From NCBI GenBank assembly GCA_021464245.1, contig JADCRB010000016.1, positions 10,753,122-10,817,121 on the forward strand: DNA of 64,000 nt. The letters run 5' to 3'. Both the position numbers and the translations under genes were made by a program. The notes beneath the pieces were generated by a model that worked only from the letters and a program-made list of their open reading frames with translations, made no database searches and was not told where the DNA came from. This stretch comes from Carallia brachiata. Lineage: Eukaryota > Streptophyta > Magnoliopsida > Malpighiales > Rhizophoraceae. Numbering within the stretch: the stretch's first letter is position 1; each line of letters begins with the position of its first letter. This document shows, one piece after another, positions 21,001-47,799 of the stretch.

Positions 21001-22250
21001 GTACCAAAGCTCAAGGCTGCAACAGAGCAAAGGCTTCTACACAAATTTCCAGATAAAAAAATCGGAGCCTTAATAAAGAAATGTGCCAAGGAACTTGGAA
21101 ACCCAAATTCTCACTGTGCCAAATGACAAGTACTGCCAAATGCCTCCAGAAAAGATGGGAAAAAGAAATAGATGGTTCTAAATATAGCACGATTAAATGT
21201 CTTAGTCAACACATGAACATAGAATTTTCCATCTCAGATATTCTTCAGGAATTGTTTGCCCAGTATGCATTCACAGTAATTGAGCTTTATTATAATGTTC
21301 AAGCTCAGCATAGAAGGAAAGCATATCTGTTTAATGTCCTCAGCCTGACACCAAATATGCTGCAACTAATTCTGTCCAACGTACCAAGCGGGCAAACTAG
21401 GGAAATTTGAGAAATACACTTTTCGAGAAGTAAAGGCCATTGTTAGCAAAAACAATGACTCTGCCAGTATTTCAGAGTTTTGGCCCTTACTCAATGGTTA
21501 TGCATATGGTTCAAGTCAAGGCATGAAGGTAAATAAAATGACTCTTACCAAAGCATAACCCCAGAAGACAAAGACAGCTTGATAACCGGCCAGAGATCCT
21601 TGAAGGCTAGCATTGAGAAGCCCTTCCACGTTTCATGGCATCCTCCACATGTAATAAACAAAAGCTGACCCACATTCAGAATCCAGAATGCCAAAATCGT
21701 AGATATCATTGCTCCTGGGATTCCAAACTTAAACGTCACAGTCAACAGCCAGGACAAAAAGATATGGATACCCAGTGTACCAGCAGCCAAGTATGCAATG
21801 ATTATATTCTTGCTCTGCGCTTGTAGGAACATTTGGCAGGTAAAGGATGGAATGTAGGAAAATAGAACAGGGATTAACCACAGAGAAATTATTCCTGCCT
21901 CTTTTGCAATGTACGATTCCTGGCCTAAAGCCTTCAAAATTGGGGTTGTGAAGATAAACACCGGAAGGAGTATGATTGAGCACATGAATAACACTATTCA
22001 AGATCTTTGGAGATATATCCCAAGCATGTGGTGCTGTCTTGCACATATGCCTGCCCACATAGAGTTTCCAACGCACTAGTCATCCCTAGCTGCATTTTGA
22101 CAAGAAGAAATCAATGCCTAGCATGCACAAACAACCAAATGCAGGTAAGCAATTGACTTGTATTTAGTGGATGTCAAGAAATTATTCAACTCAAAACTTA
22201 ACCCGTTGAGTGAACCTCAAGAATGGACATTGGAACAATTCACAATGATT

Positions 22251-25671: not shown

Positions 25672-26129
25672 TGTTGAAACAGGAAAGAGAGTAAAATTGA
25701 AAATGAAAAAATTACTTCAAGTTGCATACAATACTATTTTTCTTAATGTAAAATTCGCTCTCATATCAGTGCAAGCAGGTTAAGCGAATTTCCTCACATG
25801 ATAAAATAAAACACATTTAGTTGTAATTATATTACTGAAATCAAGCTCCTGAGAAATTATTATAATATTGAAAATTGCTCTTAGAATGTGTATAGATTTT
25901 TCTATCTCTATATCTATATGAATGATCGATTTACATATTTATAGAGAAATTAATAAGATAATTATTTGACTAAGAAATACGTTATTTGGGTCCAATAGAT
26001 ATGACTATTTAATATATCTTTTCATCTATAGACATAATTCTTCAATATATCTTTTATCAATAGACGCATTTTTAGAACTATTAAATTAATGAAGAGACAT
26101 AACTCTATATTTTGAAAATTCTCCAAATA
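25672..26129 (-). repeat. LTR (right, probable 5' LTR)
   Basis: 458 bases, partner of 22,251-22,707. No convincing tRNA primer binding site was recognised next to it. Confidence 0.87.
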
Positions 26130-26647
26130 TGATTAACTTCAACCAGCCAGAAAATTTCCTTCTTTTTTTTTTTTTCTCTTTTTTTTGTTAACTTCAGACC
26201 ATACTAAACCAAAAGAGGGACATCGGAACATAATCATTAGTCAGATAAGCTGGATGCTTCTGGTGCAGTCAGTGTTTGTTTCTTTGGTTAGTTTGGAGTA
26301 AAAAGAAAAAAAAAAAAAAAAAAAAAAAACAGAGAATCCAAAGACAGGAAAGAAAGAAGCAAAGTGGTTACCAGAATGCCATTACAGAACCTCAGGAGAA
26401 CAGTGTTGACAAGTGAATATGCGGCCAGCTGAGTAGACCCAGTATGACCAATAAACGCTTGGCTGATCACATTAATCCCAAAAGTGGAGAACCTGGTGAA
26501 AATAGCAGGACCAGCTACAATCCACAACTTCTTGGTCTCCCTCCATAGCTTGTCCTTGAGCTTCAGATTCTCCTTCTCAACATCACTTTCAGTGTTATCC
26601 TCTTCTCTTTCTTCGATCAAGAGATTTTCATTAATCTCTGTGTCCAT

Positions 26648-27587
26648 TTCTCCACAAGAACCCCCCCTACTTCGTTTTAGTTATCAACACACAGAGAGAG
26701 TGAACACACACCAAGCAGTATAGTATTTAAGCAGAGAAATTATTGAAATGAGACCAATTCTATGGAGCCACTACCTATGAATAACAGCTGGACAGACACA
26801 AGGTGGAACACAACCCCACACAGTTTCTGTTTGTTTTTCGAAAGTTTGTTACTTGGATGGATGTACCGAGCACTATTTTATTAATAAACTATTAAATACT
26901 GCGAGACTGTATTATTACCGTTTTAATGTTACTTAAACGAAATTAAGTACTGATAAAACAATTAAAATGAACAATTTGGCACCCCCGCCCCTACCAGTAC
27001 CAAGTCCTCTACGGCCTTTATGTACTCTAATGAATCAACCAATTTGTCTTCTGGTTACATTTTGGCCTCCACTCTTCTTCTCCATCACGCTCTTGATCCT
27101 CTGCAAACTCTTGTTCCACTATCACACATGCTCCGTTGGTTAAATGCATTATTTGGGTACAGTTTAAAAAGAATGAACGTACTCTTGAACATTCAGGTCT
27201 AACAGTAAAAAAGAGCTTGTTCGCTCTTATACCGAAAATCATCAATTTGAGACTTTATCAAGTGATATCTCTTTAGAATTTGCTTTTTTAATGAAATAAA
27301 ATTGTTTTTGTTAAAATTATGAAGTACTAATTATACCTTTTCATTGTCATATTGTTGGAAAAAAGCGCAATAGAATCACAACATAATATTAAGACTAACA
27401 AACAATGGAGACAAAAATCCATTTCAGTTAGAATTTTCAGTTGTGATTTTTTCTTTTTATTTTATTTTTTGGTATGACGTTGAGAAACTCTATACTAGGT
27501 CGGCAAATGGACAACGACAACCAAACGTCTTCAAGGGGTGCTTATGTGACTGTCAAATAAAAAATAGATGTGCTCATATGAATTGCA

Positions 27588-29350: not shown

Positions 29351-30023
29351 CAGGGCCGGACCTATTTAGAATTGAGCGGGGCAACTTCCCCCACAGAAAG
29401 TGCAAATTTATAGATAATTTACTTGTTATTTTTATAAATTTATAGATAATTTATTTGTTATTTTTATATATGCCCCGAGTAGAATTTTTCTATTGGCCCC
29501 ACTACATTAATTTTTGCCCCATCACCGTTTTCGTTTTTAAAACTGCCAACTGTCCAATTAAATGTGTGACAAATAATTCAAGAGCCTTGAGATCCTAATT
29601 GTCATGGTTCTACTACATCACAGAGAAATTGTAGTCATATTTAGTTTCTAATATATAGAAAAAAATGTTAAAAAAATATTGTTGATAAAAACAACCATCA
29701 AATTATATGAAATGAGAAGAAAACAAGTCTAATGCTTTTCAAATTCAAAGAGCAAATAATAATATTGAGATACTAATGTTTTTCTTTTCCTTTTTACATC
29801 CATCAGATTTGGAAGATATATACCTGTCTTTAGGTAATTGTTTGTAGCTAAATATAATTTGAGTATATATAATCTAAATAAATTCATTTTTGTTTTATTT
29901 TGATATTATTAAAGTGGCTGATATTTTTTATATTATGAATTTGATAACTCTTTCAAAGGTCATGATAAAATTTTCTCGATAGAAGGAAAAAATGGAACAC
30001 ATATTTTTAATCATAGATAATTT

Positions 30024-30811
30024 TGTAACGGGTATATTTCGAATTTAAAACAATTAAACTCGAAAATATAAAAATAAATTACAAATAAAAATTTAAAAAT
30101 AAAAAGAAATTTACGTGGGGTCGATCTCCGTAGATCCTCCGGTTAGTGTTCCTTTTTTGACTCCGTCAAGGGTTGCACGAGTTTGATCTTGACTGAAATA
30201 ATTTCCACAGCTTTTTCTTGAACTGGGTAGACTGAAACTGTATCTGATTTGGACGTTTTGATTACGGTTAAGAACCGCAGAGACTTGATCTGAGCCGATC
30301 TAATTTAATTTTACCGAGGGTCGAAGGGACTTTTTCTCGGATGAGCTGCCTGGATTTTGCTGAGGGCCGTGTGAGGCTTAATTCTAGCCGGATTTGTAAT
30401 ATTTTGATATTTTCAGATTTATATTCTCATAAATTCAGATCTAGGAATATAAATCTAAAAATAATTTTAGAAATGGAAACAGCAAATTTTTTGGGGCTTA
30501 CCCCTGAAATATCTCTCAAAAAGGAGTTAGGAGAGTATACTGCAGAGTAAAAGTACGTAGGAAAAGGAGAAATTTTCTTGAGAGATTTTCAAAATTTTCT
30601 TTTTCTCTCAAATTTTCTGGATTTTTCTGTTTACAGATTTGCTGAATCTATTTTGAATTGAGGGGCAGAGGGCCTATTTATAGGGCTCCTTTCCCATGTG
30701 AACATCACATGGGAAAGGAATATTTTTTTGAAATATTTTTCCTTGGCCGGCGTTGCCGATTTCAAGGTCAGCAACGCCGGTCATTGACTTTTTTTTTTTT
30801 CTTTATTTACA
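30024..30811 (-). repeat. LTR of Tat element (3' LTR)
   Basis: 788 bases, TG...CA. By eye it differs from the right LTR at about 45 positions (roughly 5-6 percent), mostly C/T and G/A changes, which points to a moderately old insertion. Confidence 0.92.
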
Positions 30812-31046
30812 AATGCCCTCACTTCAAGGGTCGGTAAGGAAGAACTTTACGAGCGTGATCCGAACCGAATCTTTAAGTTCAGGTTGAAACTTGAGATGTT
30901 CTGATGAACATTGAACGTTGAAGTCTTCTAACTCTGACTATGTCTGCTGTTGTTGGATTGCAATAGGAATCCGATACGATCTTGAGAAAGTTAGCAGCCC
31001 AGCCAATATACAAATTGACATTCTGACTCCAGGTGCATTCGAGCTT

Positions 31047-31661
31047 CTATAGCTCGCAAAGGCTGGCAGAAGTTTTTTGAAGTTCCAAAGCTTTGGTGAG
31101 GATGATTCGGTAGGCAAAGAACTTGAACCTCCCCAAGAGGAAGGCCCAGCACTTCGGAACTTCAAGACCGGCACACAGAGAGACTGACTGTAGTGATGAT
31201 TCCCAAGTCTGCTTCGACGTAAGGAGAGTAGTTGGAACTTCCCTGTACGTCGCCGCATCCAAAAGAAGATTAGGATGATTGCAGCTTCTCATCTCTCTGT
31301 GGTAGATGTGAATTAAGGAGAGTAGTTGGAGCTCCATGACACCGATGACGTTGGAGACTGAGTTTCGAGGGCTTTTAGGGATCCCTCGAGGAAGACTACT
31401 CATTCTTTTCTTAGCTCGTGCGCCTTCAACTTCTTGATCAAAGAACTTCCTGAGACAAGTGTAGAGACTAACCATTTTCTTTTGAGAAAGAAGAGCTGAG
31501 GGGTGAGTATTACAACTCAGAATGCAATATATATATATACATACGATAAAGTTTTTTTTTTTTTTTGAAAAGTCAAAAAGAAGGTACGCAGAATCGAGTA
31601 GGTCCATCCACGTCCCTTTCCTGCATAGGAGACAAAAGAGGCAGCGGCTGTCGCGTGTCAC
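31047..31661 (-). other. Open frame of unknown nature in the 3' region of the Tat element
   Basis: A 204-codon open frame lies between the WOX-like gene and the 3' LTR on the sense strand of the element. I recognise no family. It contains a Lys-rich run and a YIYC stretch that come from simple sequence. It may be only untranslated 3' sequence of the element, or a further piece of captured DNA. It is noted because it is the longest open frame in this part of the element. Confidence 0.25.
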
Positions 31662-31740
31662 GAAAGTCGTTACCGTGTGTTGCAGAAGTCGTTGTCGTGT
31701 GCTGCGGAAGTCGTTGCCGTGTGCTGCAGAAGTCGTTGCA
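31648..31740. repeat. 22-bp tandem repeat, about four units
   Basis: Four consecutive copies of a unit like AAGTCGTTGCCGTGTGCTGC, 22 bases long and with few changes between copies. It is GC-rich against AT-rich surroundings. Plant Tat-lineage elements are known to carry tandem repeats in the variable region between pol and the 3' LTR, which is where this one sits. Confidence 0.85.
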
Positions 31741-31966
31741 CCTTATCTTGTCGGCCATCCTAGCGGGGCCTGAGGCGCAGCTCCAAGTCAAGCTCGACCT
31801 CGTCTGGTGGGCCGATGATGTTGACGTCGATGTCGCTTTCCGGCTGGTTGATGCTGCCGGAATATTCTGGAAAGAGAGGCAAAGTTTTGCCGGAATGACC
31901 ACCTTCTGCTAGAAAAGTCCCTCCTGAACTTAAGTACTTAGGAGGGATGAAACATTGACTGACTCC

Positions 31967-32376
31967 CTAAGACCACCAGGAACAGTACGCATGCTCCCAC
32001 AGGCTACGGCTTTGATTGTTATAGCCTGAAGAGACTATTGCCGTGGTAGAACTCGGACCTGCTTCATTTGAGGGCGAAGTTGTACCGGTGGGATCTACTA
32101 TCGGAATGACAAACTGTTCTTTGGAAAAAGCAGCTCTCAGTGCTGGTTTCTTCCTGCTTCTCCAATTTTGGAACCAATAAAACACATTTTTTCCTTCGAT
32201 TGCCCCGAGCGGGCGCAATCGTGAGACAAGTTGGTAAATCTGAGATGCATTAGGCATAATACCTCCATTGTTGTGGAAGACTTCCTGCAAATTTGCAGTT
32301 GTGCCATGGTTGGTTGCCATCTTGTGCGGGGTGACTTTTCTTCTCCTTTGTCTTGAGGTTCTGCAACTGGTTCCAT
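31967..32376 (-). pseudogene. WUSCHEL-related homeobox (WOX) sequence inside the Tat element
   Basis: From ATG at 32,376 the frame reads [20 protein letters not shown], then QPTMAQLQI. After a one-base deletion in a T run near 32,290 the next frame continues with LQEVFHNN, then a [13 protein letters not shown] helix, then [12 protein letters not shown], and stops at 31,967. Joined across that deletion, the homeodomain (about 32,325-32,144) lines up with the WUS-clade WOX homeodomain without gaps. The invariant W, F and N of helix 3 are kept. The usual HKARERQK tail is replaced by WRSRKKPA. No WUS box (TLPLFPMH-like) or EAR motif is seen in the remaining 60 or so residues. It has no visible intron. 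WOX proteins are plant transcription factors of stem-cell and organ identity; this copy is probably non-functional unless the shift is bypassed. Confidence 0.85.
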
Positions 32377-32461
32377 CTTTCTTGTGGCAGAGAAGCAAAG
32401 GTCTGGTATGTGGTGAAGATCGGTTAAGACTGATGCTAGGTTTCAGACTCAAACCCTCCGT

Positions 32462-32476
32462 CGCTTTTATATTTTT
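32462..32476 (-). promoter_or_regulatory. TATA-like box in front of the WOX-like sequence
   Basis: On the minus strand the sequence AAAAATATAAAAGCG lies about 90 bases before the ATG at 32,376, a normal plant spacing for a TATA box plus a short leader. It is an inference from sequence only. Confidence 0.45.
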
Positions 32477-32499
32477 GGGCCGTTTACAGTTTATACTCA

Positions 32500-32870
32500 T
32501 GTGGGCCGGGAGTTGGATTGGATTCTGAACTTGGGTTCTGAACGGTGTCTGGAACTTGGAATTTTTTTGGTTTTGGGCTTTGGATTGGATTTGGGTCAAG
32601 TGTTTGGGTTTTGGATTTGGATTTTTGGATTTGAGTTGAGTGTTTTGGGTTTTGAGTTTGGACTTAGTTTTCAGACTTTTGAGTTGGACTTTGAGTTTTC
32701 TGAATTGGGTTCAAGTGTTTGGGTTTGGATTTTCGGGTTTGGATTTTCGCTTGGACTTTCAGATCGGGACTTCCGAACCTTTTTTTTTTTGATTTTTTTT
32801 CTATTTTTTTCTTCTTTTTTTTTGATTTTTTTTCTATTTTTTTCTATTTTTTTGATTTTTTTAAAAAAAA
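32500..32870. repeat. Degenerate TTTGGATTTGGG minisatellite and T-rich tract
   Basis: From 32,515 to 32,765 short phrases of the type TTTGGGTTTTGGATTTGGAT repeat with variation, followed by TTTTTTTGATTTTTTTTCTA units to 32,870. It lies directly behind the integrase stop codon. Open frames rich in Phe, Gly and Trp (plus) or Lys and Asn (minus) here are repeat artefacts. Confidence 0.75.
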
Positions 32871-32875
32871 CATAT

Positions 32876-33985
32876 TTACACATAATACTGTTTCAGAAAT
32901 TTACCATTGATTGGGCCGATTCGGACGCCTTTTTGGTCTGACAGCATGTAAGCGTTGTGAGTATAGGCCTCCTGCACTAGGTATGGCCCGTCCCATTTGG
33001 AAGTAAGTTTGTCACCAGGCCGATGCTTCATGTTGATGGGCCGTCGCACTGCAAGAACAAGGTCTCCAACTTGAAAAGATCGAGGGCGGACCCTGCGGTT
33101 GAACATGTTGGTGAGCCGGGCTTGGTAGCACTCTAGTTGCTGTTGCGCTTTGAGCCTCCTTTCATCGAGGGCTTCTAACTCATCCAGACGTAGGCGAGCA
33201 TTTTCCTCTTGTGTGAGTCCTTCCAGAACAGCCATGCGCAGAGATGGAATATGTGTTTCCAACGGCAGTGTTGCTTCGACACCGTAGACAAGTGAGTATA
33301 GCGTCACCTGTGTTGGAGTCCGGTAAGTTGTACGATACGCCCATAATGCCTCCGAGATTCTGTCATGCCAATCTCTTTTGGATTTAGAGACTACTTTCCG
33401 CAATAGGTTGCATAAGGTCTTGTTAAATGTTTCGGCCAAGCCATTTGCTGGGGCATTGTAGATGGATGACTTGTACTGCTTGAACTTGAATTTCTCGCAG
33501 AGCTTATCGATCAAGCTGTTGTAGAACTGCTTGCCATTATCAGTGACGATGAATCGAGGGACTCCATAGCGATAGATCAGCTGAGTCCGGATGAAATTGG
33601 CAACATGCTCCTTCTTTACCTCTCTAAGTGGAATAGCTTCGGCCCATTTTGAGAAGTAGTCGGTTGCTGCGAGGATGTACAGGTGACCCAGGGATGACTT
33701 TGGCAAGGGCGCCACTAAGTCAAGACCCAAGCTTCAAAGGGTCAGGATGAGACAGTTGGATGCAGTGGCTCCGGTGGTTGATGTATGTAATTGGCATGAA
33801 ATTGACAAGCTTGACAAGTTTTAGCAAACTCAATGGAATCACGTACCATGGTTGGCCAGTAGTATCTCATCCATCTGAGTTGGAAGTGCAACTTAGGCCA
33901 CGATTGATGTCCGCTACAAACACCTGAATGTGCTTCAGCGAGAGCTTGCTTTGCCTCTTCATTATCTAGGCAGCGAAGCAAAACT
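32876..33985 (-). pseudogene. Tat element integrase region
   Basis: The N-terminal zinc-binding part (HSGVCSGHQ ... CQACQFHA, about 33,930-33,810) is followed by a Trp-to-stop change and a one-base loss near 33,735-33,750. The catalytic core then reads open for 284 codons to 32,876. It shows the first Asp in LAATDYFSKW, the second in FIVTDNGKQF and the Glu in NGLAETFNK, then a C-terminal part ending GPINGKFLKQYYV. Integrase inserts the DNA copy into the host genome. The catalytic triad is intact, but the two lesions cut it off from the rest of pol. Confidence 0.92.
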
Positions 33986-35450
33986 CCATCAAAAGATCTT
34001 CGATACAAAGCATCCTTGAGATATATGAAGCGAGGAGCTCGTCGTTTGACTGCTTTTTGAGGCACGTAGACAATGTCGTAGCTTTGTAGGATTACTGCCC
34101 ACTTGGCAAGTCGTCCTGACAAGATTGGTCCAGATAAGATATATTTGACAGGATCAGCTCTGGCAATGAGACGTACCGTGTGAGCTTGCATGTAGTGCCT
34201 CAACTTGTCAATGGCAAAGAACAGTGCTAGACATGTCTTTTCAATGGGCGAATAATCAGCTTCGGACCGTTTAGTGTTCTGCTCAAGTAATACAGGGCAA
34301 CTTCCTTTCCCTGCTCGTTTTCTTGTGCAAACAGGGCTCCCAAAGATCTTTCCTGCGCTGCAATGTAGAGAATCAACGACTTTCCTTGAATTGGAGCTCC
34401 CAGGACTGGTGGATTGGAAAGGTACTTCTTTATGCTCACAAAGGCTTTGCTGCAAGCTTCGTCCCACTCGAAGTTGACATCCTTCTTCATCAATCGATGG
34501 AAAGGTTGACATCTCCCAGCTAAGTTGGAAATAAAACGGCGAATGTAGGGCAGCTTTCCTTGTAGACTTCGTAGCTCGTGCAGGTTTTTAGGTTCAGGCA
34601 TCTTTTGAATTGCCTCAACCTTTGACTGATCAACTTCGATTCCACGATGGCGCACCACGAACCCAAGAAACTTTCCTGATGTGACACCGAATGCACACTT
34701 GAGAGGTTCATTTTAAGCTGATGCCTGCGAAGTCTTTCAACACCGTCTTGAGATCCTCGAGGTGGTCTTTGCGCTTCTTAGTCTTTACAACTAAGTCATC
34801 AACATAACATTCTACAATCTTGTGCAGCATGTCATCAAAAATTTTTTGCATAGCACGTTGATAAGTGGCGCCAGCATTTTTTAATCCAAACGGCATAACT
34901 TTGTAGCAGTATATACCTTTTGGGTGCGAATGCTGTCAACTCCTCGTCTTCTGGTGCCATTCTGATTTGGTTATAGCCTGAAGAACCATCCATGAAGGAC
35001 AATGCTTCGTGACCCGTTGTTGCATCGACTGTGATCTCCGTTATGGGCAACAGAAAGTCATCTTTCGGCAGGCCCTGTTAAGATCTCGAAAATCAACACA
35101 TACCCTCAACTGTCCATTCTTCTTTCTTACCGGACTATGTTGGCAATCCACGTTGGGTAGGTGACCTCTCGGATGAAGCCAGCATTGATCAGCTTGTTAA
35201 CCTCCTCCTCGATTTGTGGAATGAGTTCCGGGCGGAACCGTCGTTGTGGTGCTTGACAGAACGAACACCCTTCTTTACTGCTAGACGATGCACCGCAATT
35301 TTCGGGTCAAGTCCAGGCATTTCTTTGTAACTCCATGCGAACACGTCCCTGTATTGACTTAATACCTGAACATATTCTTGTTCTTTTTCTGCAGTAAGTA
35401 AAGCACTTACAAATGTAGGTCGAGGATCTTCCGAGAGCCAAGATTGACCT
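33986..35450 (-). pseudogene. Tat element reverse transcriptase and RNase H region
   Basis: Pieces in several frames: the entry to RT (DVFAWSYKEMPGLDP near 35,355-35,310), the palm motif FMDGSSGYNQI near 34,980, the catalytic CYVDDLVVK near 34,795, the connection/RNase H part (LRSLQGKLPYIRRF near 34,560, then EKTCLALFFAIDKLRHYM near 34,230). The YVDD motif is intact. Frames change at least at about 35,080, 34,925, 34,715 and 34,290. YVPQKAVK is joined directly to RRAPRFIYLK at about 34,045. In Tat elements a second, archaic RNase H domain normally lies at that point, so it appears to have been deleted in frame. Confidence 0.9.
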
Positions 35451-36148
35451 CCTTGAGTTCATCAACAGTTGCTTGGCCACCATCTTCAAGTTCCGGGGGA
35501 GCCTCCTTTACTTCACCGTCTGATGAGTCAGACTCAGCCTCCTCGCTAATTGTGACATGAAATGTAGAGCCTCTGACTTCACATTCTTTGTTTGACTGGA
35601 TAAGCCTGTCTTGTTTGGTGGTGGTGGTGATGGCACGTGCATCAGCTGCTCAGTTTCGGCTCTTTAGCGTGATCCGCACAGGTGACTTCTCCTGATAGCC
35701 TAAGCCAGGTCGGGACTGTGATGATTGAGAAGCGGCGCCATGTGTGGATGGCAGCGTACCCATTGTGCTCGGGTTTGAGAAGTCATAGCCTGCCTTGGCC
35801 AAGAGCTTGTATGCATTAGGATCGAATCCTTCGTGTGTTCTTCTTTCTGGAAGTGAGCCGCCTTCGACTGCTGCTGTGTGTGGTTTGACGAAACCTTTTA
35901 ATGGTTTTGAAGACAAAACCGGCTCAATTTTTGGTATCGGCAAAGTGTAAGTCTCCTTCAGGTTGTGCAGTTCCTTTTTTTGGTTGGCTTTCTTGCTCCT
36001 GTTTAGGATCAATACAATAAGAGAAAGGGGGTTGACCTTCTGAGCGTCGTGACTTCGGCACATAGCGTAGGACTGGAGTGGAGCTTGAAGATGCAACATC
36101 CTTCGGACGAAATTCAGCAGGCTGTGGCAGCTTTTCATTTGTTGGAGC

Positions 36149-36901
36149 CTAGGGTTGGGTATTGGCAAGTTCTTCGACAGCTTTTCCCTTTTTGTGGATG
36201 CCCCCGGTCCAAGTAGCTTTTGATGGAATGATCTCCGGATTGTCTGTGTCAGTGTAGAAGACTGCATCCGCCAAATGTGATTCAGCATCATCAAACGGCT
36301 TTAAATCAGCATTGACCTTTTGAACGCCACCATTATAGTACTTGAAGCACTGATGCAGGCTTGAGAGCACAACTCCATTTTCATGAATCCACGGTCGTTC
36401 TAGTAACATCTTATATGTGGTACGTGCATCGATCACATGAAATAGAGTGCTAAAAGTGAGATTACCGATAGTTAGCTCCAAGCGAATCATCCCAATTGCT
36501 TTCTGTCCTCCTTGATTAAAGCCATGAATCATCAAACGACTGTCTGATAATTCATCAATGCCAATACCGAGCTCCTTTATGGTGGATTTTGGGATAATAT
36601 TGACTGCCGAGCCATCATCGATCAGAATACGTCGGACCTTCAGCTCTCTCACATAGCCTGATACATACAGCGGCCGATTGTGGGGTTTGGACGCCAGCAG
36701 GAGATCCTCATCTGAAAATGAGATAGCGGAGTAACATCCGACATGATTTTGGGCCGCCTGATGCTCCGTCGAGCTAGAATTACTTGATGGCAGAGGTCCT
36801 TGAGGTCTGAAGAGTATTGCCGACTTGATTTTGCCACACTTCTGTTGTTTGCAAAGCTGTAAACAGCTGAGGGTTAGTGAGAAGGGTTTGGAGAGCTTCA
36901 T
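36149..36901 (-). pseudogene. Tat element protease region
   Basis: A retroviral-type aspartic protease fold: LIDDGSAVNIIP near 36,610-36,575 supplies the catalytic Asp (the DDGS form seen in several plant Ty3 lineages), and FHVIDARTTYKMLLERPW near 36,440-36,385 forms the second conserved block. It cleaves the gag-pol polyprotein during particle maturation. It is open for 250 codons but out of frame with the gag pieces upstream. Downstream (36,294-35,460) is a protease-RT linker in broken frames. Confidence 0.88.
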
Positions 36902-38680
36902 ATACCTTCTCCGTTGTTGAATTTTTGTTGTCGAGCGGCTCCTCCTTACAGCGTGTCACCTCTTCTGATGGTTTTGAAGTGATGGTGGTCTGGTTTGTCG
37001 AGGTTACGCCTTCCTGGTCCAGAATGATTTTATTCTGGCTTTTGAGCTTCATGATTAGCTCCTTCAGGATAAAACATTTCTCGGTTGGATGACTTACTAT
37101 CCGGTGATATTTGCAGAATCTTAGATCACTGACTCGATCCTTTTCATTCGGCCGCTTGCACTCTGAGAGTTCGATCAGCTTCGCCTCCAAGAGTTGTTCA
37201 AGAATGTCGGAAACGTCTGAGTCGGGGAATGGATACTGCTTCTACTCCAACTCTCGCAATGTCACCTTCCGCCTTTCCTGTTGTTTTGGCTGAGTTATTT
37301 GAGTCGGAGGATTTACCTTAACTTTGGCGCCCACTTTTACTGGTGCGGCTTCAACAGTCATTACTTCTTTCCCTTTTCCTGAGCTGTTGGGTTTCTTAAT
37401 CTCCCTTCTGCCTCCTTGCTGGTCCAACTGGATGGGAACCGTGCCTGCGGAAGTCTGGATGCTTATCTCCATATCATGTGCGCGGGTCGCCAATTCTTCG
37501 AAAGTTCGGGGTTTAACACCCTGCATGATGTATAACAGCTCCCAATGCATTCCCTGGATGCACATCTCTACGACAGAAGTCTCCGTCAGGCGATCTTTGC
37601 AGTCCAAGCTGAGGGCACACCATCTGTTGATGTATTCGACAACGGGCTCTCCTTTTCCTTTGTTTGGTGTTGGTAAGCTCCATCATACTTACCGTCCTTC
37701 GAGTGCTGAAAAATCTGTTGAGGAACTCTCGTTGTAACTGTTCCCAACTGTCGATCGATTCTGGTTTAAGATTTACGAAGCAGGTGAAAGCGGTCTCCCT
37801 GAGTGAACGAACAAACTGCTTCACCAAGAGATCTCCGTAAGTCCCTGCGTTGTTGCAGGTTTCAACGAAATGGGCGATGTACTGTTTGGGATCGCCTCGT
37901 CCGTCGAATTGTTGAAATTTGGGCGGCTGGTAGCCCAAAGGCATGTTAAGATTTTCGATCCGTCTGGTGTACGGTTTGACGTACATCTGTGATCCTTGGA
38001 AGGATGTAGCTTGTTGCAGGCGGATCGTATTAACTATCATTTCCTGCAATTGTTGAACAGATAGCGAAGCTAAAGAATTTGAGGGTGGCAGCTGTGTAGA
38101 ACTACCTGGTCGCTTTTCTGCAATGAAGACGTCGGCTGGTTGGCTTCTGGAGTGAAACCGGGTGGATATGGTCGCTCCTTGCGAATTTTGAGATCAATTT
38201 GGATCGGGGCCTTTCCTTTAAGAGCGGCGATCTGTTGATCTTTTTCCTCCACGACCCTAATCAGCTGCAAAATCTTGTTCTCCAATTCTGAAATCCTTTC
38301 TTCTGTACTGATTGTGTTGATAATCATAACGACAACAGATGAGGCTCCGCGAAAGACTGGGGGAGAAAACTCTTCTGATTCCTCTGTGTGAGTTGGATTC
38401 TGTTGAGCGGGCTTCGTTGTGTTGCCCTCGACTTCGATCGGGGTGGGTGATCGACTCCTCCATGCGGCAAGAGAGTCAGGGGAGAGTTCCTGTTGTTGTG
38501 CAAACTGTGGACTCTCAGTTTCAATATTTTGTTGGGTTTGGACGTCAAGAAATTGTGTCCGTTCCCGGGTTTCTGGACCTGCGTACCCAAGTAGGGTAGT
38601 TGATGCAGGCAATGGAGCCGTTGCCTTCTTGTTGGTACCGGCAGCTGTACTGCTTTTTGGTGTCATTTGATGTGCTGAAC
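36902..38680 (-). pseudogene. Tat element gag region
   Basis: The N-terminal piece (38,680 to 38,070) is Gln/Ser/Pro-rich and ends with a coiled-coil-like stretch (ERISELENKILQLIRVVEEK). The capsid part (38,049-37,513) has FDGRGDPKQYIAHFVETC and WEQLQREFLNRFF, typical of plant retrotransposon gag. The C-terminal part (37,607-36,900) includes CKYHRIVSHPTEKC, the short Cys/His finger seen in Tat gag. At least two frame changes and one stop (near 37,242) break it. It would form the virus-like particle in an intact element. Confidence 0.9.
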
Positions 38681-38865
38681 ATCTATAAATTTTTTTTTTC
38701 ACTTTTTTTTTTACTTTTTACTCTTTTTTTTTTACTTTTTTACCTTTTTTGTCTTTTTTTTTCTATTTTGTCTTTTTCTATTTTTCTATTTTTTTCTTTT
38801 TTTCGGCTCTTTTCTTTTTGCCTCTTTTTTTTTTTTTTAAGGAACAATTGATGGGAGGTGAAGAG

Positions 38866-38889
38866 GTCCCACCGAGCGTGCCAAAAATT
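38866..38889 (-). other. Candidate primer binding site of the Tat element
   Basis: On the minus strand TTTGGCACGCTCGGTGGGAC follows the 5' LTR by about four bases. Position fits a tRNA primer site. I did not assign the tRNA. Confidence 0.45.
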
Positions 38890-39683
38890 TGTAACGGGCA
38901 TATTTCGAGACTAAAACAATTAAACTCGAAAATACAAAAATAAATTACAAATAAAAATTTAAAAATAAAAAGAAATTTACGTGGGGTCGATCTCCGTAGA
39001 TCCTCCGGTTAGTGTTCTTTTTTTGGCTCCGTCAAGGGCTGCACGAATTTGATCTTGACAGAAATAATTTCCACAGCTTTTTCTTGAACTGGGTAGACTG
39101 AAATTGTATCTGATTTAGACGTTTTGATTACGGTTAAAAACCGCAGAGACCTGATCTGAACCGATCTAACTTAATTTCACCGAGGGTCGAAGGGACTTGT
39201 TCTCGGATGAGCTACCTGGATTTTGTTGAGGGCCATGTGAGACTTAATCCCAGCCAGATTTGTAATATTTTGATATTTTCAGATTTATATTATCATAAAT
39301 TCAGATCTAGAGCGATCGGAGAATATAAATCTAAAAATAATTTTAGAAATGGAAATAGTAAATTTTTTGGGGTTTACCCCTGAAATATCTCTCAAAAAGG
39401 AGTTAAGAGAGTATACTGTAGAGTAAAAGTACGTAGGAAAAAGAAAAATTTTCTTGAGAGATTTTCAAAATTTTCTTTTTCTCTCAAATTTTCTGGATTT
39501 TTCTGTTTACAGATTTGCTGAATCTGTTTTGAACTGAGGGGCAGATGACCTATTTATAGGGCTCCTTTCCATGTGAACATCACATGGGAAAGGAATATTT
39601 TTTTGAAATATTTTTCCTTGGCCGGCGTTGCCGATTTCAAGGACAGCAACGCCGATTATTGACTTTTTTTTTCTTTGTTTACA
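38890..39683 (-). repeat. LTR of Tat element (5' LTR)
   Basis: 794 bases, partner of 30,024-30,811. It has a 10-base addition (AGCGATCGGA, near 39,311) that is absent from the other LTR. Confidence 0.92.
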
Positions 39684-39853
39684 AATTTTTTAAAGAATAA
39701 TTTTAGCACAACAACAAAAATATCATTATAATCATAAATTCTAAAATTATTCACTTTTTTGGAAAGTGTAAGTAAAGTAATATTTATTTTAGATTTTTAG
39801 AGGTGTCTAACCAAATATTCTTTTGTAAAATGTAATTTTTTTTAAAAAGCCCT

Positions 39854-40990: not shown

Positions 40991-41491
40991 GGATATGCAT
41001 ATTTTTAATCTTAAATTTTTAAATTTTTTTACGTTTGAATCTTAAATTTTTTTTTACATTTCATTTCAGTTCTAAACCTTTTAATTTTCTACCAAATCAG
41101 TCTCTCTGTTTACCAAAAATGATCAATCTATTAAAAAATAATTTTAATTTTACAAAAAATTATTTAAAAAAAGATTTACTATATGAATTGAATATCTTTT
41201 CTATTAAAAATATGCATGTTACCTATTTAATTCGTATATTTGTTGATTAAAAAAATATTTAATATACATATTTTGTTGATGAAAAAAATATTTAATTTAT
41301 GTATTTAACTTTTTTTTAATGATTTTTATTAAGTTAAACTCATTTATTAATGGATTGACCACTTTTTGTAACTTACATGACTGATGTAGTAAGAAATCAA
41401 AAAATTTAGAACTCAAATGAAATGTCAAAAAAGTTTAAAACTCAAATGTAAAAAAACTTAAAGATTTAGTATCAAAAATATGCTTATCTTG
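40991..41491. mobile_element. Mutator-like non-autonomous element (501 bp)
   Basis: Flanked by a 9-bp target duplication, CCAAAATAG (40,982-40,990 and 41,492-41,500). The two ends are inverted copies over about 90 bases (left GGATATGCATATTTTTAATC, right end complement AAGATAAGCATATTTTTGAT). The matching places in spacers A and C lack it. A 9-bp duplication with long terminal inverted repeats is the signature of the Mutator superfamily. There is no transposase inside. Confidence 0.85.
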
Positions 41492-42486: not shown

Positions 42487-45400
42487 TTAAGCATCTTGTG
42501 TGCTATGTTCTTGAGAATCTGGTATAAACCATCTATCAACTCGATTACGAGCTACAATTACCTGTAGATAAGAATGAGTTACTTCCATAAGCTAATAGTT
42601 TTAGGAAAGAAAGCAGGAAGGTAACCAAATACCTGCTTTTCCCAATCAGTTTTGTAGGTGATTATAATAAGCACAATAGTTTGAGTAAATGTTCCGATCA
42701 GCATTCCAGACCAAACACCCTGTATAACAAATTTATGAAGAAGTAACATGAGGCCATAAAAGAAATCTGAAAGTACAACTTGGAATGTGCATGCAAATGA
42801 TCAAGTCATTTAGAAGAGACTTCCTAAGGAAAAGAAGAAAGAAAACTTACTTTGACTTGCATGGTTGCAACATAACCAAGAATAACCCCAATTGGGATCC
42901 CAACTAGGTAGTAGCAAGCTAGATTAACATATGCTACGATGCTCTGCCAGCCAGCTCCAATTGCAACTCCTATTTTGAAGTAACAATCAAAGTTGTTACA
43001 TTCTTTTCAAAACAAACACAATGTCTGATTGACACTTAAACATACTCGCTCCAAATTGTGATTAGCCTTACGATATTTCTAAGAATTAAGAAGAATACCA
43101 GAAAGCACTGGTTGTATGCTATTCATGAGTATGGAAACGGCCAACAGTACTGAAAGATTTGTAAATGCATTGACTACTTTGTTGTCTTCAGTAAAGAGGT
43201 ATGCAAGCTTCCCTCTGAGAAACAGGAAGACCAGAAACAGCACCAAGCCAATGGCAAACGATGTAACAACTACCACGACGATTGAGAACTTTGCAGCTTT
43301 TGAGCTCCCTCTCCCGAGTTCATTTGATATTCTCACACTGCAAGTTTTCTGTCGGAACATTGAACATAAAACTATATACAGATTCCGTTACAGAAATAAT
43401 AAGAGAGATGATTATACCCTGCAGCAGCCAAGAAACCAAGGGATATCATCATTTCCCACCCGTTGATGTTGATGCTACAAAAGGAACAAGTTAAACTGTT
43501 CATCTTTCATAACAATTTTCAGTCCATTGAAAATGAAGTGATTGTAGGAAAAGAATTACCAAATAGCAAGGGCATCGATGGCGATCTCAGCATCTTTCAA
43601 GTGGCCCGTTAAAAGAACCAGAATGCTATTGTACCAAAGCTCCAGGCTGTCAGAGAACAAAGGCTTCTACTCAGATTTCCAGATAAAAATATCGGAGCCT
43701 TAATAAATTAATGTGTCCAGGAACTTGGAAATCAAAAATTCTCGCTGTGCAGAATGACAAATACAGCCAAATGCCTCCAGAAGGGATGGAAAAGGAAAAA
43801 TATGGTTCTAATGCAGCGTGATTAAATGTCTTAGTCAACACATGAACATAGAGTTTTTCATCTCAAAACACCCTATTATCCACATGTATTCTTCCCCTAG
43901 TATGCATTCACAATAATTGAGCTTTATTACAATGTTCAAGCTTAGCATAGCAGGAAAGCATGTCTATTTAATGTCCTCAGCCTGACACCAAATATGCTGC
44001 AACTAATTCTGTCCAACAAACCAAGCGGGCAAACCAGGGAAATTTGAGAAATGCACTTTTCGAGAAGTAAAGGCAATTGTTAGCAAAAACAATGACTCTG
44101 CCAGTATTATGTAGTTTTGGCCCTCACTCAATGGTTATGCATATGGTTCAGGTCAAGGCATGAAGGTAAATAAAATGACTCTTACCAAAGCATAACCCCA
44201 GAAGACAAAGACAGCTTGATAACCGGCCAGAGATCCTTGAAGGCTAGCATTGAGAAACCCTTCCACGTTTCATGGCATCCTCCACATGTAACAAACAAAA
44301 GCTGACCCACATTCGGAATCCAGAATGCCAAAATTGTCGATATCATTGCTCCTGGGATTCCAAACTTGAACTTCACAATCAGCAGCCAGGACAAAAAGAT
44401 ATGGATACCCAGTGTACCAGCAGCCAAGTATGCAATGATTATGTTCTTGCTCTGCGCTTGTAGGAACATTTGGCAGGTAAACGATGGAATGAAGGAAAAC
44501 ATAACAGGAATTAACCACAGAGAAATTGTTCCTGCCTCTTCTGCAACGTACGATTCCTGGCCTAAAGCCTTCAAAATTGGGGTTGTGAAGACAAACACCG
44601 GAAGGAGTACAATTGAGCAGATGAATAACACTATCCAAGATCTTTGGAGATATATCCCAAGCATGTGATGCTGTCTTGCACCATATGCCTGCCCGCATAG
44701 AGTTTCCAACGCGCTAGCCATCCCTAGCTGCATTTTGACATGACGAAATCAATGTCTAGCATGCACAAACTGTTTGCAGGCCTAGCTTCTCTAATGTTCA
44801 ATGTTCCTGTGAAGGTTTTTGGAGCTGTTTTGCTGTGAGCTGGAGGTGGCAGTGGCAGCATTTGAAATGGAATTTCTTTTTGGGATTATTTAGCTTATGT
44901 AATGAGTTTTTTGTATTAGTTTTGTCAATGTAACTGGATTGAAACTATCTTAGCGGTATTTGACAGCTTTTTACTTAAAGGCTGCAAAGTCTAGCTAGTG
45001 GGTTTGGTTTTTAATCATTGTACTTTTGGGAAAGCTTTATACTTAGTCTCTTTGCTTTGTCACTCTTGGAATGACAAGCTATACTCTATTTCCACTTTAT
45101 TGTACTCTAACTTTGTACCTCTCTCCCTTATAAGGGAAATATATTTGAAATAAAAATGTATCTTCATACCCAACCATTGCTGGCAGTTTAGTTTTCTCTG
45201 CATTTTTTCTAAGCTGGTTTTTGTTCCTCTTTCACTTGGATAGCTTTATTTTCCTTACACAAACAACCAAATGCAGGTAAGCAGTTGACTTGTGCTGAGT
45301 GGATGTCAAGAAATTATTCAACCCAAAAGCTTAATCCGTTGAGTGAGCCTTAGGGATGGACATTGGAATAATTCACAATGATTAACCTTGACCAGCCAGA

Positions 45401-45897
45401 AAATTTATTTTTCTTTTCATTTTTTTTTTAGCTTCAGACCATACTAAACCAAAATAGGGACATCGGAACATAATCATTAGTCAGATAAGTTGGATGCTTC
45501 TGGTTCAGTAAGTGTTTGTTTCTTTGGTTAGTTTGGAGTAAAAAGAACTAAAAAAACAAAAAAAAAAAAAAAACAGAGAGAGAGAATCAAAAGACAAGAA
45601 AGAAAGAAGCAAAGTGATTACCAGAATGCCGTTACAGAACCTCAGGAGAACAGTGTTAACAAGCGAATATGCGGCCAGCTGAGTAGACCCAATGTGACCA
45701 ATAAACGCTTGGCTGATTACATTAATCCCAAAAGTGGAGAACCTGGTGAAAATAGCAGGACCAGCTACAATCCACAACTTCTTGTTCTCACTCCATATCT
45801 TGTCCTTGAGCTTCAGACTCTTCTCCTCAACATCACTTCCAGCGTTATTCTCTTCCCTTTCTTTGATCAAAAGATTTTCATTAATCTCTTTGTCCAT
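42487..45897 (-). CDS. MATE efflux transporter (DETOXIFICATION family), gene C
   Basis: Eight exons with GT-AG borders: 45,622-45,897; 44,186-44,727; 43,560-43,646; 43,418-43,474; 43,099-43,337; 42,851-42,969; 42,633-42,719; 42,487-42,561. They join to 1482 bases (493 codons and stop) with no frame break. It starts MDKEINENLLIKEREENNAG. Family features are ETLCGQAYGARQHHMLGIYLQ in the first half, the TCGGCHETWKGFSM loop, LELWYN with the conserved Glu of transmembrane helix 7, SNELGRGSSKAAKFS in the second half, and LMNSIQPVLSG before the last helices. Length and hydrophobic segments fit the usual twelve-helix MATE. Plant MATEs export metabolites or xenobiotics by cation antiport at the plasma membrane or tonoplast; the substrate here is unknown. 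The closest Arabidopsis group is, from memory, DTX21-27. An in-frame stretch of 59 codons lies upstream of the chosen ATG but is not conserved in frame in copy B. Confidence 0.93.
44771..45259 (+). mobile_element. Solo LTR in intron 1 of gene C
   Basis: 489 bases beginning TGTTTGCAGG and ending TTCCTTACA, with the 5-bp target duplication CAAAC on both sides (44,766-44,770 and 45,260-45,264). It is absent from intron 1 of copies A, B and D. A TATA-like CTTATAAGGG (near 45,126) and an AATAAA-like signal shortly after it suggest the plus orientation, opposite to the gene. It is a different family from the solo LTR at 41,962-42,425. Confidence 0.85.
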
Positions 45898-45956
45898 TTC
45901 TCCACAAGATCCCCCTCCTGCCCTTTGGTTATCAACACACAAAGAGATGGTGTACA

Positions 45957-45986
45957 CACACCAAGCAGTATAGTATGTAAGCAGAG
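45957..45986 (-). promoter_or_regulatory. Conserved TATA-like block, gene C
   Basis: Same block as in the other copies, about 60-90 bases before the ATG, but with one change (TTACATACTATA instead of TTAAATACTATA). The change could alter promoter strength if this is the real TATA box. Confidence 0.45.
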
Positions 45987-47799
45987 CAATTATTGAGACG
46001 AGACCAATTCTATAGAGCCACCACCTATGAATAACAGTTGGACAGACACAAGGTGGAACACAACCCCCACACAATTTCTGCTTGTTTTCCGAAAGTTTGT
46101 TACTTGTATGGATATCCTGAGCACTATTATATTAATAAACTGTTAACTACTGCAAAACTATATCAATACTGTTTTAATGCTACTTAAACAAAAGTAGGTG
46201 GTGACAAAACAATTAAAATGAACAATTTGGCGCCCCCGCCGCCACCAGTACCAAGTCCTCTACTGCCTCTATGTACTCTAATGAATCAACAAACTTGTCT
46301 TCTGGTTGCTTTTTGGCCTCCACTCTTCTTCTCAATTAATGGACGTGTTGATATTCTCATTCAATTTTTTCTGTAGAGAGAACTCAACACTCAAGTATTA
46401 TTTAGTTTGAGTAGACCTCCTACATGCTTAAGTTTACGCAAAATACAAATATTCTCACATGAAAGACACAAATATTCTTGTTGGAACATCAAGAAAAAGG
46501 CAAAGCACAATATTTGCAATTAATGAAATAGAGGATTGAATTCTTGATCTCGTGTAAACCTGAGCCACGCTAGTTTAAAATTGTCAATTATTTGATCAAT
46601 TCATGTATATTTATTTAATTGATTTGTTGGTCATCAGAAAATTTATTAGACTGTAAATTATATAATATATAGTAGATTTTGTATACTTCTTAAAAATATA
46701 TAAATGCTTAGACTTTCTGTTTCTATGAAACGATAGGAAAGAGTACACACTGCTAGTATCTTAGGAATTCTAAAACTTGTTTTTCAGTTTAAAAAGATAC
46801 ATTGATAAAATAGTTGGAAAGATTTTACCATTCTGGTTGAATTGAGAGAGAGAATTAATTATTTGTGTCGTTAAAAATTTGAACCTTGATTTTTACCTTC
46901 AAATTTTATATTTGATAATTATTAGACTATAATTTTTTTTTTTTTACTAATCTACTATAGTTACTAAACTATACTTATTAGTTGAAATTGTTGGAACTTT
47001 CATTATACGTAGACTTTAATTATTATATTCGAAAAAATTTCCACCCTAATGTATCAAGGAGATACATGCTTCTTTTGTTAACAAATAGAAAACAAAAGAT
47101 CTCCATTTTTTGCACCCAATGCCATATATAATTAAGTTATAAAATTCAATGTGAAGTACTCCCCAAAATTCCTTATTTGATGTGGAAGCAAGGACAAGCA
47201 GACGATTCCAGTTCAAGGAAATTGTGGAGAGGGACTTGATGTCTGTACCTGCCATTACACCATAGCTGCGTGGCAAAAAATGTGCCATGCACTGCAAGCC
47301 ATCTATTTTTTTTTTTTTTTGCCCCCTTTTGATTATTGCTGAGGGTCAAGGTATCAACTTGGACGAAAATAATTAATTGCACAATCTGGCCTGCTAATGC
47401 TGTTCACTGGAAACATACACCATCTAATCATTCATGCTTCCATTATTGCTGGATACACAATGAGCAAAATACAAATTGATCTTCGCACCTTAAAAAAAGC
47501 CAAGATGTATTAAAAATTTACAAATTATTATTATTAGGATTTTTTTTTAATTTGAAATTCATTGAACTGTAAATTATATAATAAGAATAACTTTTTTCAT
47601 TTTTATAAACATCATACACTTTTTTAAGGTTGGAATTGGAGATCTAAAAAATAGAAATATAAACTCTTAATTAGAAGAAATATTAGGGACAAAAATTTAC
47701 AATTATTATACTGAAATAAAATTAGACTCCAATTACCTATCCGCAGAATTAGAACTAGAATCTGAAAGTAATAATAGTAGCTTGTCAGGTGGTTGAAAA
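45987..47799. repeat. Array spacer C, proximal part
   Basis: Homologous to spacers A and B. It ends at the hAT element, whose left target copy GTTGAAAA is 47,792-47,799. A stretch at about 46,335-46,490 differs from the other spacers. No gene is seen. Confidence 0.78.

Follow-up and report, generated by a model that had tools for sequence, protein, structure and literature searches.

A family of Ty3/gypsy retrotransposons in Carallia brachiata carries a WUSCHEL-related homeobox (WOX) gene between its integrase and its 3′ LTR, and this family probably keeps and uses the gene as its own. The family comprises some 730 copies or more, in at least two sequence subfamilies. The identity of the gene, its position, its copy number, the open frames retained in other copies and the divergence of the subfamilies are matters of observation; purifying selection on the homeodomain during the spread of the gene is supported, though not proven.

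The retrotransposon in the window

The DNA analysed here, called the window, is a stretch of 64,000 nucleotides. Its retrotransposon is composed as follows:

30024..39683, minus strand: LTR retrotransposon, 9,660 bp, decayed copy (LTR pair, TG...CA ends, AAATT duplications)
38890..39683, minus strand: 5′ LTR (direct repeat with the 3′ LTR)
30024..30811, minus strand: 3′ LTR (direct repeat with the 5′ LTR)
39684..39688, no strand: target-site duplication AAATT adjoining the 5′ LTR (sequence)
30019..30023, no strand: target-site duplication AAATT adjoining the 3′ LTR (sequence)
37516..38193, minus strand: gag piece (Pfam Retrotrans_gag, 2.3e-06)
34711..35077, minus strand: reverse transcriptase in two overlapping frames (Pfam RVT_1, 1.4e-14 and 2.7e-04)
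33745..34712, minus strand: RNase H and integrase zinc domain in two frames (Pfam RT_RNaseH_2, 4.8e-12; RT_RNaseH, 9.6e-13; Integrase_H2C2, 1.3e-10)
32876..33733, minus strand: integrase core, open stretch including the stop (Pfam rve, 2.3e-10)

The LTRs form a direct repeat with 93.05% identity over 806 aligned bases, have TG...CA ends, and are flanked on both outer sides by the identical five bases AAATT. Their K2P distance of 0.058 (784 sites) corresponds to an age of about 2 million years at a rate of 1.3e-8 per site per year. The Pfam domains are arranged as in Ty3/gypsy elements, namely gag, reverse transcriptase, RNase H, integrase zinc domain and integrase core, and the assignment to this class rests on the LTRs, the duplication and the reverse transcriptase-RNase H-integrase order. 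Pfam matches to a protease in the window element were all under the curated cut-offs. In this copy gag and pol are split over several frames, the integrase core being a single open stretch, and the region between pol and the 3′ LTR measures 2,064 bp.

The element sits within an array of repeated MATE transporter gene pieces:

21545-21994, minus strand: MATE transporter gene piece (Pfam MatE, 9.5e-08)
44182-44733, minus strand: MATE transporter gene piece (Pfam MatE, 1.8e-22)
52131-52682, minus strand: MATE transporter gene piece (Pfam MatE, 7e-23)

This array includes a repeat (26129-26746 and 45378-45996) with 89.5% identity. An imperfect inverted repeat of about 0.5 kb, 75.6% self-complementary, occupies 40992-41488 of the window.

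The WOX-type gene

The gene and its motifs lie at the following positions:

31760..32376, minus strand: WOX-type gene of the element, ATG to final stop, with a frameshift and a premature stop (31,967-31,969) in this copy (translation, copy alignment)
32135..32325, minus strand: homeodomain, spanning the frameshift (Pfam, PDB, family profile)
31868..31885, minus strand: WUS-box TLPLFP (translation)
31772..31792, minus strand: EAR-like motif LDLELRL (translation)

The original prediction described a homeobox frame with TRWQPT, continued one frame on, between the integrase stop and the 3′ LTR in sense orientation, and the frame (...TRWQPT; ATG at 32,374-32,376, minus strand) was located there. 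It matches the Pfam Homeodomain model at 7.6e-06, over the curated cut-off. In the PDB it matches WUSCHEL (E = 3.1e-12) and STENOFOLIA (6.4e-11), the sole further row being a chance match to flagellin (1.1). For a profile of five family copies, 64 residues could be matched gaplessly to the WUSCHEL homeodomain (8.9e-20). The predicted gapless alignment is borne out in this way, and so is the WOX match in a profile search, on whose absence the prediction was to be given up. Equally, the window copy is one base short relative to other copies, which is the missing base that had been proposed and which causes the frameshift. The end of the gene had been placed too early, at 31,967. This is a premature stop, beyond which the same frame reads KTLPLFPEYSG and then ELDLELRLRPR before the next stop at 31,760-31,762. 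A chance open frame is ruled out by the Pfam, PDB and family-profile matches, and sequence comparison confirms the homeobox as a real, decayed WUSCHEL-related frame.

According to the available part of one account, WUS consists of a homeodomain, an acidic domain, a WUS-box and a C-terminal EAR motif, the last two being required for TOPLESS binding (PMC10573764). The element WOX protein, about 205 residues long, has a homeodomain, a WUS-box and an EAR-like end. By its Pfam and PDB matches the homeodomain is of the WOX type found in the WUS clade. The WUS-box T-L-x-L-F-P is present in the window copy, is kept in some open copies and is altered in others. The C-terminal motif LDLELRL is of the EAR type, and the host loci L031 and L039 have such motifs after the WUS-box. 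Helix 3 of the element homeodomains reads WFQN-RRSR or WFQN-RRHR, as against WFQN-HKAR.

Spread through the element family

A 26-base homeodomain DNA motif, allowing up to three mismatches, has 729 sites in the genome (343 + 386) compared with one for the reversed control; a 26-base integrase motif has 764, its control none. When the genome was searched with 581 bases of the gene and 40 of 1,227 candidates were scored, 40 full-length matches and two short ones were obtained among the matches scored; the window copy matched at 100% and the others among the 40 scored at 93-95%. A search with the WUSCHEL homeodomain gave 1,253 candidates. Among the 150 listed, nine matches at 67-84% identity are read as host WOX genes and at least 141 others lie at 52-56%. 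Twenty-one of these 141 lower-identity loci were read with flanks and 20 contain the element frame; L052 failed the motif filter. The DNA and protein lists together give at least 177 different element-type places. One locus, L018 (G000:C1:423867-427446), has two copies of the element homeobox; the roughly 0.9 kb separating them includes a short inverted piece.

An integrase site lies 0.9-2.2 kb upstream on the same strand for 36 of 48 homeodomain sites, and a homeodomain partner was found for 36 of 62 integrase sites, the pairing covering listed sites with 0-1 mismatch on contigs C1-C19, with partners of two or more mismatches outside the listings. Of 51 gene-bearing loci taken with 1.5-kb flanks, many of which stop before or just within the LTR, 43 include integrase DNA and 28 an LTR piece. 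Both LTRs are present in 16 of 20 copies fetched at the expected stretches, the other four being without a 5′ LTR in the fetched stretch, and LTR identity among the fetched copies ranges from 0.893 to 0.987. An integrase search, in which 40 of 985 candidates were scored, provided 39 elements other than that of the window. Eight of these were read downstream, six of them picked for the absence of a listed neighbouring homeodomain site, and all eight carry the gene, with identities of 92.3-93.5% in three and 80.7-83.3% in five.

Capture by this one element and a WOX-derived frame common to the family had been the two alternatives offered at the outset. The 729 motif sites, the LTRs in 16 of 20 copies and the eight carriers among eight elements read support the second, that the frame belongs to the element family and spreads with it. 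Other copies do share the homeobox at the same place, as the proposed check foresaw.

Open frames and subfamilies

Fifty-five copies were aligned, 30 found by DNA and 25 by protein search (homeodomain similarity). An ATG-started frame of at least 201 residues is present in 12 (6/30 DNA-found and 6/25 protein-found), among them L021, whose frame is reached via several small indels near the start. The other 43 are without a full ATG-started frame; L005 and L057 have a full frame but no ATG. The gene has thus decayed in the window copy and is retained elsewhere in the family. The WUS-box and the EAR-like motif differ among open copies, as with TLPLLSEY in L002 and LDLELPLG in L007. An Asp/Val-coding repeat, at about 31812-31840 of the window, changes length among copies in 3-, 6- and 12-base steps.

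The five integrase-chosen copies at 80.7-83.3% make up subfamily B, whose homeodomain changes include FYNDGGIVPNSTQIL and VYFWFQNRRHRE. Three of its copies show no difference in the 43-46 homeodomain codons compared, which suggests a recent spread of B. A single longer stretch of B was read; it has kept the homeodomain and ILPLFP and is out of frame toward both gene ends. The capture is old, judging by a mean homeodomain dS of 0.46 over 33 pairs of open A copies with B. The subfamilies look like mosaics: their homeodomains differ greatly, and the 20 C-terminal codons compared contain no fixed difference between A and B. L101-L106 have an integrase 96-97% identical to that of the window and a homeobox just 81-83% identical, a mismatch due either to recombination between subfamilies or to a fast-changing homeobox.

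A candidate internal promoter

An A-rich linker between the integrase and the WOX gene precedes the frame, and two features lie upstream of the ATG:

32464..32471, minus strand: TATAAAAG, candidate internal promoter (TATAAAA conserved among copies)
32,476-32,481, minus strand: GGCCCA beside TATAAAAG (20 of 30 copies)

The first is about 90 bases before the ATG of the element WOX; in 44 of 55 copies it occurs no more than 100 bases upstream. Of 30 copies, 29 retain TATAAAA and just 3 have a second GGCCCA further up. The sequence up to 32,480 was part of the search query, and its conservation partly reflects the choice of copies by search; bases 32,481-32,500, just beyond it, are 98.2% conserved, and the linker above 32,560, taken in 20-base steps, is 51% to 94% conserved. 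The reading that we prefer is that an internal promoter of this kind may drive the element WOX. Self-regulation through WUS-type sites was considered and found no support: of nine simple motifs, WUS sites or controls, none was more frequent in the two window LTRs than in shuffled sequences.

Probable selection on the element WOX

Variants confined to single copies have mostly arisen after insertion, and those present in many copies have spread with the element. Over the whole frame in 55 copies, the observed/expected N/S ratio of singletons is 1.02, which is neutral. In the homeodomain the ratio to expectation goes from 1.44 for singletons to 0.34 for variants in at least four of the 55 copies; between singletons and common variants it goes from 0.87 to 0.62 in the middle part, and from 1.17 to 1.28, with no fall, in the C-terminal part. 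The 30 DNA-found copies give 1.67 for singletons and 0.50 for variants in at least two copies in the homeodomain, and a rise from 0.89 to 1.36 in the C-terminal part. Fisher tests for depletion of old amino-acid changes in the homeodomain gave p values of 0.017 and 0.032 (several frequency cut-offs, uncorrected), and pooled old homeodomain variants gave 0.018; whole-frame tests were non-significant (p 0.087 and 0.13). The integrase, used as a positive control, has a ratio of 0.19 (Fisher p 1e-7), a constraint far stronger than that on the homeodomain.

Fixed A-B differences in the homeodomain number 16 non-silent, one of which joins two leucine codons, and 10 silent, not significantly lower than among singletons (p 0.11); for the middle part the figures are 10 and 5 (p 0.77). 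No fixed stop was seen between the subfamilies as compared with 4.55 expected (p 0.011), and the A-B homeodomain dN/dS, uncorrected for mutation bias, is 0.42. The sample of 55 copies includes 25 found through homeodomain similarity. We read the results as moderate, real constraint on the DNA-binding homeodomain, a conclusion that is supported but not proven, with none shown on the tail.

A WOX cDNA could instead have been caught once by a successful lineage and copied without use, the open frames being those of young, undecayed copies. The neutral singletons, the unconstrained C-terminal part and the 43 of 55 copies without a full ATG-started frame are what such an account would predict. It is nevertheless unlikely in view of the depletion of amino-acid changes among old homeodomain variants, the lack of any fixed stop between two subfamilies at a homeodomain dS of 0.46, the gene in all eight integrase-chosen elements read, from both subfamilies, and the nearly equal counts of homeodomain and integrase motifs (729 vs. 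764). Use of the gene by the element family is the better explanation because old homeodomain variants are depleted, no stop is fixed between A and B, the TATA motif is kept in 29 of 30 copies and the frame is open in 12 of 55. This explanation is weakened by a constraint far below that on the integrase and absent from the C-terminal part, which bears the WUS-box and EAR motif.

Origin and donor

Of the nine host WOX loci, seven (L031, L032, L034, L036-L039) have the homeodomain and the WUS-box on separate open stretches; for L033 and L035 the stretch examined did not extend to the WUS-box. The element frame is unbroken from homeodomain to WUS-box, and its continuity, compared with the split host loci, points to capture from a spliced mRNA. 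Public protein matches identify L031 as the host WUS, the two best organism-named ones, at 74% and 66%, being from Erythroxylum. The other host WOX genes are presumably those that their motifs suggest, and we named them on that basis. Recent capture from a living host WOX gene is unsupported, the element homeodomain being 40-51% identical to those of the nine host genes.

A WOX tree with host genes had been proposed as a means of finding the donor. In a homeodomain tree of 44 rows the five element rows do cluster (96/87; 95% of bootstrap trees; branch 1.03), apart from three WOX11-type rows (99/95), and the best tree places them, with weak support (90/79), next to the 36 modern-clade rows and outside that group. 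The tree does not single out a donor, as placing the element clade with WUS, WOX3 or WOX2 is not rejected (p 0.30, 0.32 and 0.33). The WUS-box speaks for an origin within the modern clade, and one extra homeodomain residue common to element and WUS-type rows, together with the EAR-like end, would favour WUS itself.

Among public proteins, a one-copy query gave nine matches, the top score being 47% over 33% of the query and the top identity 51% over 26%. The five-copy profile gave 928. By name, the 120 listed are either plant WOX proteins or homeobox proteins without a specific name, with up to 62% identity over 29%, and the best of them are mostly named WOX3. Neither the nine matches nor the 120 of 928 listed include a closer relative. 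Such absence says little, since the host's own WUS, used as a query, has no match above 74% over at least 70% of its length among the 120 listed. Three short, diverged WUSCHEL-like public proteins, P0002, P0004 (Ipomoea) and P0003, of 145-161 residues, have a WUS-box and an EAR motif.

Class of element and known relatives

The available portion of a screen of 121 angiosperm genomes gives a dual RNase H as the mark of the Tat lineage (PMC9289625, citing Ustyantsev 2015); the scanned pol pieces of this one decayed copy yielded no second RNase H, and the Tat membership proposed at the outset is a tentative one. Retand elements, in the accessible text of a 2025 survey, have an antisense TRP28 ORF and a pol-3′ LTR region of 2,933-6,566 bp (PMC11963269). 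TRP28 is absent from the two antisense ORFs (114 and 145 residues) scanned in the window copy, and its 2,064-bp region falls outside that range. Retand and other additional-ORF elements likewise have an extra ORF between pol and the 3′ LTR, as far as the available text of these sources goes (PMC11963269, PMC7264820). Across 617 assemblies, the same portion of the survey describes the domain-bearing ORFs as antisense and has no sense pol-3′ LTR ORF with a known domain, unlike the sense ORF of the present element, which encodes a transcription factor (PMC11963269). The accessible part of a 2020 review of additional ORFs contains no words starting with homeo or WUS and no "transcription factor" (PMC7264820).

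The screen of 121 genomes lists 15 extra domains, including B3 and YgdH (LONELY GUY), and its available text does not name a homeodomain, in which respect the present element differs from those screened (PMC9289625). It resembles plant Ty3/gypsy elements with B3 (Aegilops), YgdH/LONELY GUY (Citrus) and 2-ODD (Phalaenopsis) in that a host-type domain is kept in many gypsy copies (PMC9289625). A cotton WOX paper, in its accessible portion, concerns only elements near WOX genes (PMC5501002). The searches of the literature, largely of open-access papers, listed no report of a homeobox inside a plant LTR retrotransposon. Extra host-type domains in gypsy elements are already known; a sense-oriented stem-cell homeodomain factor with co-repressor motifs, in hundreds of copies, is new as far as we have searched.

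With WOX proteins of the WUS clade the element protein shares the order of homeodomain, WUS-box and C-terminal EAR-like motif, and with the WUS type the extra homeodomain residue. It differs in that its gene belongs to a mobile element present in hundreds of copies, in its unbroken frame, its altered helix 3 and its tail without clear constraint, and in a homeodomain 40-51% identical to those of the nine host genes.

Possible function and meaning

Retroviral oncogenes are host growth-control genes taken up as cDNA by a retroelement. They may be the nearest working analogy, as here too a host growth-control gene appears to have been captured as cDNA. The element WOX differs from them in being fixed in a plant LTR retrotransposon family without a known infection stage. 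It would be made from its own TATA-type promoter or from a subgenomic RNA. The protein would enter the nucleus, bind WUS-like sites and recruit TOPLESS-type co-repressors, and it may bias the host cell, making it more like a meristem cell or less responsive to the element, by which new insertions would reach the germ line. A plant passes on only those insertions that occur in cells contributing to the germ line, and WUSCHEL maintains cells of this kind. We tentatively suggest that the element WOX might bring host cells into a stem-cell-like state from which the germ line is supplied, or keep them in it, or might retune silencing there. The family would then be a plant counterpart of a transforming retrovirus, selected over millions of years and diversifying into subfamilies whose homeodomains have changed.

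Short repressive homeodomain proteins can act as competitors, and the element WOX might block or dampen host WUS targets, perhaps in connection with silencing, instead of mimicking WUS. The protein is short, an acidic stretch was not noticed in it, and helix 3 has RRSR or RRHR in place of HKAR; the same sequence features are predicted by the main reading, and we regard competition as quite improbable. A private event, in which a separate, later insertion marked by a duplication of its own brought the homeobox into this copy only, can be dismissed on the evidence of 40 full-length matches, the window copy included, 729 motif sites and the gene at the same place in integrase-chosen elements.

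For studies of the WOX family there is a practical warning, as more than 700 homeobox-like sites in this genome appear to be element-derived and may enter counts of WOX genes. The family supplies hundreds of natural homeodomain variants, from which WOX-like proteins might arise ectopically in the host. Whether selfish elements steer the stem cells of plants becomes a question that can be put to a direct test, now that a mobile family has been found with a WUSCHEL-type gene of its own.
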